The notes below the pieces were generated by a model, which worked only from the letters and a program-made list of their open reading frames with translations, made no database searches and was not told where the DNA came from. From an uncultured Dehalococcoidia bacterium (GTDB taxonomy: Bacteria > Chloroflexota > Dehalococcoidia > Lucifugimonadales > UBA1127), in NCBI GenBank assembly GCA_951812285.1, contig OX638292.1, positions 1,283,008-1,347,007 of the forward strand: a DNA stretch of 64,000 bases, given 5' to 3'. A program made the position numbers and the translations under genes. Of the stretch, positions 45,576-57,824 are shown piece after piece; position 1 is the stretch's first letter; the number at the start of each line of letters is the position of its first letter.

Positions 45576-45668
45576 TGGCGGGAGTGCGAGGGAGTCGAAC
45601 CCACCCGCCCCGACACGAGGCGCAACGGATTTGAAGTCCGCAAGGGCCACCGGGCCCCATCCACTCCC
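45576..45668 (-). tRNA. selC: Selenocysteine tRNA (anticodon UCA)
   Basis: The 93-nt minus-strand gene has every hallmark of bacterial tRNA-Sec. The anticodon loop CTTCAAA carries UCA. The D-stem is six pairs with a four-base loop (GGGGCC-CGGT-GGCCCT). The long variable arm pairs CGCCTC with GGGGCG around GTGTC. The extended acceptor starts GGGAGTG/CACTCCC, the discriminator is G, and CCA is encoded. The eighth acceptor pair and one T-stem pair look mismatched. It lies 26 bp after trxA. Its presence implies UGA-directed selenocysteine insertion, consistent with the split redoxin gene at 56562. Confidence 0.95.
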
Positions 45669-55656: not shown

Positions 55657-56508
55657 ATGGCGAGGAAATCCGCACTCCCCCTGATAATTGCCGCCGCACT
55701 GCTCGTGTCAGCGCTCGGAGCAACATGGAGCGGCGGTCAATCCGGCCCGACCGGCACGGAGCAGATCGCCATTCCCTACGTCCCCATCGCTCTTCAGCCT
55801 GGATGGAACCTGATCTCCATCCCCTTCGACCCCTTCAACCCGGCGATCGACGCCATCGCCGTCCCCGGACATCCCGCGGACGTCGTCATGACATACGACA
55901 GCGCGAATAAAGTGTGGTTGGTCTCTCAGCGAGACAAGGAAACGGGCCTGTTCAGCGGCGACATCGAGGAGATGACCTCCAGCAGGGCCTACTTCGTACG
56001 GACAGACAGCTTTGTCCCTCTGTACGTTGGCCGACCGCCCATTCTGACGTGGAACACCCCGCCAGCGACGCCAGTAGCCCTCAACGTCACTGAAGGGTGG
56101 AACTTGGTCCCTGTCGTAGCCCTCAACTACCGCATACCCTACGCAGTAGCGGCTGACGACTACCTGCGGTCGCTCTCGGCGGGCGGACAGCCAACCTGGC
56201 TGCGGGCGATGGGCTACAACCCGCTGTCGCAACGGTGGGAGGCGATTTCCCCCGGCGACGTCGCCCTCGTGAGTGTGGGCAACCTGAACCCATGCACGGG
56301 CCTGCAACTCAACAAGGAGCGCGTCGAGTCGGGAACCGAGCGCTGCCAGGCGGGCGAGTACGCGGAGCGGTCACCCCAAGGCTCGATCACCGCCGGAGAC
56401 ATCTGGGGTGAGTTTGACGGTAAGGACCGGGTCGCCTTACGGGCGGCGCTGAGGATGGGCAAGGGTTACTGGGTCTACGCCTCCGCGGATGGCGTGATAC
56501 TCCCGTAA
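55657..56508 (+). CDS. Secreted protein with repeated GWNL modules
   Basis: This 283-residue protein has an N-terminal signal peptide (MARKSALPLIIAAALLVSALG) and no further membrane helix. Two segments begin with the same motif: LQPGWNLISIPFDPFNP and VTEGWNLVPVVAL, each followed by beta-rich sequence with a KVWLVSQRD/QRWEAISPGD unit. A third, partial copy ends in GKGYWVYASADGVILP. Similar GWNL modules occur in large Chloroflexota cell-surface proteins. A start at 55612 (GTG) is possible but would precede the signal peptide by 15 residues. Two cysteines late in the protein may form a disulfide. Function unknown. Confidence 0.7.
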   Translation: MARKSALPLIIAAALLVSALGATWSGGQSGPTGTEQIAIPYVPIALQPGWNLISIPFDPFNPAIDAIAVPGHPADVVMTYDSANKVWLVSQRDKETGLFSGDIEEMTSSRAYFVRTDSFVPLYVGRPPILTWNTPPATPVALNVTEGWNLVPVVALNYRIPYAVAADDYLRSLSAGGQPTWLRAMGYNPLSQRWEAISPGDVALVSVGNLNPCTGLQLNKERVESGTERCQAGEYAERSPQGSITAGDIWGEFDGKDRVALRAALRMGKGYWVYASADGVILP

Positions 56509-56561
56509 TGAAGAGGGGCGGCTCAATCGCCGCCCCTCAAACGTACGTTACCAGTCGCACC

Positions 56562-57779
56562 TTACCTGCTGAAGGTATAGGTGAACAAACTGAAGTCCGG
56601 CGAGTTGGTGCTCAACCGAAGCTCAGCGCGGCCCTGCATCGGACTCTGGATCACGTTGTACATGCGCGGTCCATCAATATTGAGGACCGTATTGCCCTCG
56701 CCGTCCTCCTTGACGTCCTTGCCGCGGTGTTCGACGGGCACGGGCTCGCCGTCCAGCGTCACGATTACCGGGAATGGGTCGCCGCCCGTCGGCCGCACGA
56801 CGACATTGACGCTGCGAGCACTGTAGTTGATGGCAATGTAGTCCTCGAAGTTATTGGAGGACCGGCCGTGGGTCACGCTCTCGCTGTCGATGCCCCAGAG
56901 GCCGTGCAGGTAGAACCTGCCGTCCTCGTAGTCACCCGGGTCGCTGAACTGGATGGGAGTGCTGTCCCTGACAGACACGTCGTTGCCCAGGTATTTCCGG
57001 GTGCCCCACGCGCTGCCTGCATAGATCTCGTGGGTCCGTGGCTCGCCCGAGGGAGGCGCATCGCCCTGCTCAGGCACCACACCGCCGACGGGAATGTGGG
57101 AGATGTCGTTGCCGGCCTCTTCCAGCAGCGCGCGGATCCAGAGCTCAGTCTCAAGGTAGGCGCCCTCGCCGATGTGGTGGAACCGCGCCTCTCCGTTCTG
57201 GTCCATGAGGAACTTGTGGGGCCAGTATCGGTTCTTGTAGGCCCTCCAGGTGTTGAAATCGTTGTCCATGGCCACCGGCCACGTTATCCGCTCCCGAACC
57301 ATTGCTTCTCGGACGTTCCCCTCGTCCTTTTCAAACTCGAACTCCGGTGCGTGGACGCCAACGATTGTGAGCCCGTTGGCGGCGTACTTCTCGTTCCAGT
57401 CGCGCAGGTACGGAAGCGTTCTCAGACAGTTAATTCAGGTGTATGTCCAGAAGTCCACCATGACAACCTCACCCTGCAGCTCCGTCATGGTGAGGGGTGG
57501 GCTGTTGAGCCACTTGGTGAGCCCGGTGAACTCCGGCGCCTGGTCCGCATCGCTCCCAGTGGCCGCCGTGATCTCGACGCCACGCTGCAGCGCATCTTCG
57601 AGCGCGCTGATCTTCGGCGCCTCCGGCTCGACAGGCGCCGCCGGTGCGACGGCCGCAGCCTCGCCGGGCTCCGCCGCCGTCGTCGCGTCGCTGTCGCCGC
57701 CGGAGCAGCCCGCAAGGCCAAGCGTCGCCACCGCCGCCGCAAGGGCGATGATGATTCCGGTCCGACGTTTCACAGACAC
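56562..57779 (-). CDS. Selenocysteine-containing DipZ-like redoxin lipoprotein (in-frame UGA at 57435-57437)
   Basis: This is a 405-residue predicted selenoprotein. A signal peptide with lipobox GLAGC (C25) and an Ala/Pro-rich linker lead into a thioredoxin fold. VDFWTYT is followed by UGA, then INCLRTLPYLRDWNEKY, so the active site reads U115-I-N-C118 where DipZ-type proteins have CINC. The frame stays open for the next 289 codons: HAPEFEFEKDE, WPVAMDNDFNTWRAYKNRYWPHKFLMDQNG, then a C-terminal DipZ-like beta domain. The selC gene in this window supports read-through. AGGAGG precedes two in-frame GTG starts (57779, 57773). A canonical SECIS is not obvious. A disabled pseudogene is the main alternative. 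Confidence 0.85.
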
Positions 57780-57824
57780 TCCTCCTTTCCCGAATATTGC
57801 TCAATGCTCAAGTGTCGTAATTCC

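Follow-up and report, generated by a model that had tools for sequence, protein, structure and literature searches.

A DipZ-like gene of an uncultured Dehalococcoidia bacterium carries a single in-frame UGA that is very probably decoded as selenocysteine (Sec), so that the product would be a predicted lipid-anchored UxxC thiol-disulfide oxidoreductase; the protein is best seen as a new UxxC form among the TlpA/DipZ redoxins. The gene is located in the window, the whole stretch of 64,000 nucleotides that was analysed, and its frame runs on the minus strand from 57773 to 56562, with 403 codons plus the stop and one in-frame TGA at 57435-57437 in the context VDFWTYT-UGA-INC. The placement of a lone UGA at the first Cys of a CxxC site, proposed in the initial annotation, is confirmed by alignment to the CINC of DipZ; the frame stays open after it with no other disruption, as had been claimed, but for 290 sense codons up to the TAA and not 289. 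The protein of 403 aa would have Sec at U113, which is U115 in the earlier frame starting at 57779, where residue numbers are two higher. The features of the locus are the following:

56562..57773, minus strand: gene of the predicted UxxC DipZ-like lipoprotein (403 aa including a single Sec), whose start agrees with the database entry P0122
57435..57437, minus strand: in-frame TGA, probably read as Sec (U113); TGA also in G004 and G001, TGT in G002, TGC in G003 and G049
57426..57437, minus strand: active-site motif U-I-N-C, aligned to the CINC of DipZ 2hyx, both positions being Cys in 36 of 36 homologues picked for alignment A1
57386..57417, minus strand: candidate bSECIS hairpin of 10 bp whose apical loop, UGCGCGACU, lies 28 nt past the UGA and has G at its second position
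57705..57773, minus strand: predicted signal peptide ending in the lipobox L-A-G-C (Cys23), recognized by eye from the sequence
57781..57788, minus strand: ribosome-binding site AAAGGAGG, 7 bases upstream of GTG 57773
57183..57545, minus strand: thioredoxin-like (AhpC-TSA/Redoxin) domain by Pfam, residues 79-199 in the earlier frame
56571..57035, minus strand: C-terminal PF17991 (Thioredoxin_10) domain by Pfam, residues 249-403 in the earlier frame
56513..56538, no strand assigned: terminator-like hairpin with a 10-bp stem and a 6-base loop, common to the convergent plus-strand frame ending at 56508
45576..45668, minus strand: tRNA-Sec with anticodon TCA, 11.8 kb from the DipZ-like gene

The start of the gene is more likely at GTG 57773, 7 bases past a GGAGG box, than at 57779 as first annotated, and the database entry P0122 (112 aa) begins at the same GTG. 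The N-terminus, MKRRTGIIIALAAAVATLGLAGC, reads by eye as a signal peptide with a lipobox; according to the general lipobox rule, the Cys expected at the end of the motif is found in LAGC (residues 20-23, by eye), and the anchor itself is a prediction. At the other end, the terminator-like hairpin at 56513-56538 stands between the DipZ-like gene and the convergent frame.

The protein has the architecture of the DipZ-type redoxins. Pfam recognizes the AhpC-TSA/Redoxin region (79-199), with matches to PF08534, PF13905, and PF00578, and PF17991 (249-403), so that the thioredoxin-like and PF17991 domains are both present and in order; the CxxC is absent and a UxxC is found in its place, which makes the protein a Sec variant of this two-domain group. 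The nearest solved structure by sequence is the C-terminal part of Mycobacterium tuberculosis DipZ (2e-48), and by fold it is DipZ 2hyx (9.7e-31), the six best PDB matches being DipZ chains of 2hyx and 5cyy. In the AlphaFold model (405 residues, with Cys in place of Sec, mean pLDDT 85.1) one N-terminal signal-like helix (6-20) is followed by the two domains, and residue 115, in the earlier numbering, is located between a strand (105-111) and a helix (116-135). The UGA column is Cys in M. tuberculosis DipZ and in 36/36 of the Cys homologues picked for alignment A1. The fused CcdA-like membrane domain of full DipZ was not found by Pfam or by a PF02683 search of the genome. The same genome also encodes a CxxC two-domain paralogue that is 42% identical (L054, G000:C1:2464415-2465626, minus strand).

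The codon at the active site was compared among relatives (60 searched, 38 with a match), in the order (250 genomes, 148 with a match), and in the class (393 genomes, 56 with a match); in the two larger searches only the best candidates per genome were scored, the order result holding among the matches listed, so that weaker TGA matches may be missed. An internal TGA occurs in the close orthologues of the window genome (G000), of G004 (93% identity), and of G001 (82%), in each case at the site, and the frames of G004 and G001 contain no other stop. Cys codons were read in three others, TGT in G002 and TGC in G003 and G049; the homologue alignment called for in the initial annotation gives UGA in two genus-mates (G004 and G001) and Cys in two others (G002 and G003) and in further relatives. 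The flanking genes are common to G000, G004, G001, G002, and G003, which indicates that the Sec and Cys forms occupy one locus; a search for relatives with the locus retrieved only the contig of a genus-mate and one remote match at 37%. A TGA match in G277 was discarded, being the final stop of the gene itself, with TGC at the site codon.

Damage to this gene in close relatives had been put forward in the initial annotation as an argument against Sec. The UGA copies of G004 and G001 have no other stop, whereas the Cys orthologue of G002 (G002:C91) is broken by a TAG and that of G003 (G003:C32) gives a match only at residues 101-380 (L027, L029); intact Cys relatives are present in the protein database (P0018-P0020). 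The damaged Cys copies of G002 and G003 may reflect either gene loss under way or an assembly error.

The coding capacity past the UGA is maintained. A dead downstream part would drift toward a dN/dS near 1, while the values after the UGA are 0.078 (G000/G004), 0.163 (G000/G001), and 0.213 (G004/G001); over the 40 codons immediately upstream of it they are 0.20, 0.50, and 0.21, respectively. The codons past the UGA are under purifying selection, and the UGA itself is conserved in three species whose downstream frame is selected at the protein level, in agreement with the database fragments. It is thus very improbable that the UGA is a real stop, due to a pseudogene or to a sequencing error at this codon: gene callers do end the frame there (P0122), and the broken Cys orthologues (TAG in G002, partial match in G003) indicate that the locus can decay, but a dN/dS of 0.08-0.21 past the UGA, the absence of any further stop in the three species, the same codon in three genomes, and 39 database clusters ending at the same residue speak against it.

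These fragments were retrieved with the 114 residues before the UGA as the query, which gave 48 database proteins. In 39 of them the sequence ends exactly at FWTYT, just before the UGA (one is the entry of the window itself); three (P0161-P0163) stop elsewhere, as if frameshifted, and six (P0164-P0169) are longer and end differently, Cys being present in the two that were read (P0164 and P0165). The claim that the position of the UGA is more than chance is upheld by the Cys column in 36/36 homologues, by the recurrence of TGA in two other species, and by the 39 N-terminal fragments that end there. The full protein gave 5068 matches; among the best 120 of 5068, 17 with at least 81% identity begin after the UGA (P0002-P0016, P0021, and P0024, with P0005 listed as the window's own), and the remainder are at 64% identity or less. 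Since the fragments are protein entries, the identity of the stop codon is known from DNA in three orthologues only. The prediction that standard gene callers would split the gene also holds, the N-terminal piece of a genus-mate being filed as a "hypothetical protein" (P0149).

A phylogenetic tree of the part after the UGA (72 rows) groups 19 Sec rows, of which three were read as TGA in DNA and 16 are database fragments, in a single clade (support 100/100) whose sister group is made of the Cys relatives P0017-P0020 and G002. Among the 56 less similar proteins given to the tree script, 52 have the motif, each with Cys; P0030, P0039, P0065, and P0066, missed by the motif pattern, were dropped, and P0005 was left out. 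The single, fully supported Sec clade points to one switch inside this DipZ-like family.

The two sets of fragments could also be taken as two genes, with the UGA closing an N-terminal lipoprotein and a second protein starting downstream, as a split gene or by stop and restart. Both pieces are in fact conserved and possible starts are called after the UGA; however, according to the structural model, the thioredoxin fold would be cut before its first active-site helix with loss of the catalytic residue, the second piece is devoid of a signal peptide, and the called starts vary among the 17 fragments (residues 119, 125, 128, and 160 in the earlier frame), as if none were a true start. Such an arrangement is hardly credible, and decoding of the UGA as Sec is the preferred reading.

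The genome is equipped for this decoding. It consists of one contig of 2,855,855 bases, rated 94% complete, in which tRNA-Sec (72.9 bits), selB (344.8 bits with its neighbours), selA (541.1 bits), and selD (379.8 bits) are all over their cut-offs. The check for selA, selB, and selD advised in the initial annotation is therefore positive, and the tRNA-Sec that had been placed about 12 kb away is the one found at 45576-45668. In 14 control genomes the tRNA-Sec, selB, and selD searches match in 14/14 through related genes, so that the curated cut-offs are decisive: over them are tRNA-Sec in five, selB in two, and selD in two, while selA matches in four and is over the cut-off in one. A selB gene is present in 8/8 relatives examined. 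A second place over the tRNA-Sec cut-off (L002, G000:C1:1882742-1882827, minus strand; 50.9 vs. 72.9 bits) is probably another tRNA with a long arm. The selD gene (L019, G000:C1:821296-822213, minus strand) has its own in-frame UGA in HCAG-U-AAK, and selD is among the known selenoproteins of a 2026 review (PMC13188914).

That another tRNA inserts a standard residue (Cys or Trp) at the UGA is highly unlikely: the sequence alone is silent on the inserted residue, but tRNA-Sec with anticodon TCA, selA, selB, and selD are all in the genome, and two further groups of redoxins of the order, the NHL-type and the single-domain ones, have UGA at their redox site, as does selD within its frame. A changed SECIS-binding part of SelB was considered because the selB profile match is split in precisely those three genomes that have the UGA gene; it was dropped, since the protein alignment gives an ordinary full-length SelB of 626-633 aa and the split is an effect of the profile. 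The alignment rows relied on are those of G000, G004, G002, G003, G005, G034, and G023, with G049 and G001 set aside. The SelB copy of G001 ends in an odd sequence with X residues.

Downstream of the UGA a candidate bSECIS element is present. The 60 bases from the UGA have an identical fold in the three Sec orthologues (two distinct sequences), with a 10-bp stem, the loop UGCGCGACU at a distance of 28 nt from the UGA, and a stability of -9.3 kcal/mol (-10.1 for the 60 bases), and the hairpin falls within the published bSECIS limits (PMC13188914). The model hairpin is found at 2/3 distinct DipZ-like Sec sites, at 11/14 NHL sites, and at 13/49 Cys sites, and shuffling of synonymous codons gives a qualifying hairpin in 120/300 cases and an equally stable one in 71/300; as a proof of Sec the hairpin was rejected, because both shuffles and Cys sites qualify. 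The AGUU loop of the NHL genes is absent from it. Over the 30 codons that follow the UGA, the synonymous rate among the three Sec orthologues is 0.00-0.14 vs. 0.21-0.45 for the rest of the downstream part, with permutation p values of 0.012-0.024 from three comparisons that are not independent. Two comparisons that include Cys forms give no such dip (p 0.89 and 0.96), and the dip is weaker when 20 codons are taken (p 0.05-0.08). Synonymous change is also low upstream, in the 40 codons that precede the UGA (pS 0.13-0.18), and equally low 30-codon windows occur elsewhere in the gene (7/260, 16/261, and 10/260, i.e., 3-6%); the dip is therefore not peculiar to the region that follows the UGA, and the scarcity of synonymous changes is only suggestive as a sign of a SECIS.

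If the UGA is decoded as proposed, the hairpin just after it would recruit SelB with Sec-tRNA, and the codon would be read as Sec by the genome's own SelA, SelB, SelD, and tRNA-Sec; the product would then be exported and lipid-anchored at Cys23. In the thioredoxin family generally, the first residue of the active site is the attacking one and the second Cys resolves the mixed bond. By analogy, the selenolate of Sec would attack an oxidized partner to form a mixed selenide-sulfide bond that Cys116 would resolve, and the protein would act as a reductase in the cell envelope. A search for electron donors in the 94%-complete genome gave no match to CcdA/DsbD (PF02683) or to VKOR (PF07884).

Other redoxins of the order have a UGA at the corresponding position. 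In four genomes of the family f18 (G060, G061, G062, and G064), a DipZ-like gene for a two-domain CxxC protein is followed in tandem by one for a single-domain predicted lipoprotein with UINC, with the following TGA sites:

L096 position 4701, L097 position 5628, L098 position 5943, L099 position 4967: f18 single-domain TGA sites in G060, G061, G062, and G064

Another single-domain redoxin, with WTYG-UGA-INC, is found in G026 (L103, position 2136, minus strand) on a long branch of the tree. For 75 thioredoxin domains, 22 of them with Sec, a tree was built by a quick method on 148 columns; many of its forks are open, and its well-supported branches force three changes, indicating that the Sec switches of f18 and of the window gene are separate.

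A further UGA is found outside the window, in the thioredoxin-NHL protein of the same genome (G000:C1:1127058-1128551, corresponding to L055:1559-3052, plus strand), with U46 in WTFC-U-VNC; its full-length relatives include SOQ1 (2.1e-126) and NHLRC2 (8.1e-118). Matches to this protein occur in 135/247 genomes of the order, with a TGA inside the match in 120 and none in 15, four of which stop short of the site; the NHL proteins of G060, G061, G062, and G064 have no internal TGA. The site is TGA in 17/17 distinct sequences, all picked from matches with TGA, and all 17 share an identical CCGCAGTTGCG, the upper part of a hairpin whose AGUU loop lies 25 nt past the UGA; the full bSECIS model is found at 11/14 NHL sites, and the copy of the window genome (L055) is among the three without it. 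In the protein database 19 entries (P0171-P0189) begin four residues past the NHL UGA, at MHILPQLR. Taken together, it seems reasonably probable that Sec repeatedly took the first active-site position of WTYxC[I/V]NC redoxins, in the DipZ-like genus, in the f18 tandem, and in the widespread NHL type, and that this set, hidden by gene calling, serves both the envelope and the cytosol.

With the DipZ-like gene, the known UxxC selenoproteins gain a redoxin that has two domains and a predicted lipid anchor. One locus in one genus, with UGA in some species and a Cys codon in others, is a clean natural experiment; this split, together with the intact Cys relatives, makes the benefit of selenium to an envelope redox protein directly testable. 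The gene also marks a blind spot of annotation, in which 39 N-terminal and 17 C-terminal pieces are filed apart, one as a "hypothetical protein". A bacterial counterpart of SOQ1 from plants and of human NHLRC2 is hidden by the same kind of gene-calling break, and this thioredoxin-NHL UGA protein is possibly the larger find.

Among known systems, 119 selenoprotein families and subfamilies are counted in the 2026 review, and its Table 1 includes several UxxC redoxin entries (PMC13188914). The types catalogued in this and in a 2022 review include the "Redoxin family protein" (PF08534), the "Prx-like thiol:disulfide oxidoreductase" (PF00578), and the "Thiol-disulfide isomerase-like" (cd02966, listed by the 2022 review as PF13905) (PMC13188914, PMC9312934). 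They share with the window protein a UxxC in the same fold, and since the latter matches PF08534, PF13905, and PF00578 it could be filed under those broad headings; the entries "Redoxin family protein" (HEU0032618.1) or "Thiol-disulfide isomerase-like protein" (MGB1650493.1) could already contain the DipZ-like or the NHL type. The difference, as far as the descriptions in the available parts go, is that no DipZ-like, PF17991, or lipoprotein member is named: none of the Table 1 entries consulted is called DipZ, PF17991, lipoprotein, or NHL, and the words NHL, DipZ, Chloroflex, and lipoprotein gave no hit in the text of the review (PMC13188914). In the titles and abstract openings of the open-licence literature searched, the DipZ-like and NHL UGA genes are not described.

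TlpA/ResA-type thiol-disulfide oxidoreductases have the same thioredoxin-like fold but contain Cys instead of Sec and are devoid of PF17991; the window protein is far under their curated cut-offs (57.2 of 170 bits for ResA, 35.9 of 210 for StoA, and 23.5 of 230 for TlpA). Closer are the Cys orthologues of G002 and G003, which occupy the same locus and differ in having TGT or TGC at the site, and the database proteins P0017-P0020, which have the same two domains with Cys at the site. Full-length DipZ resides in the membrane and includes a CcdA-like part. Its C-terminal domain (2hyx, 5cyy) resembles the window protein in having a thioredoxin-like CINC domain followed by the same second domain; in contrast to M. 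tuberculosis DipZ, in which the site is occupied by Cys, the window protein stands alone as a predicted lipoprotein, and its codon for that position is UGA.
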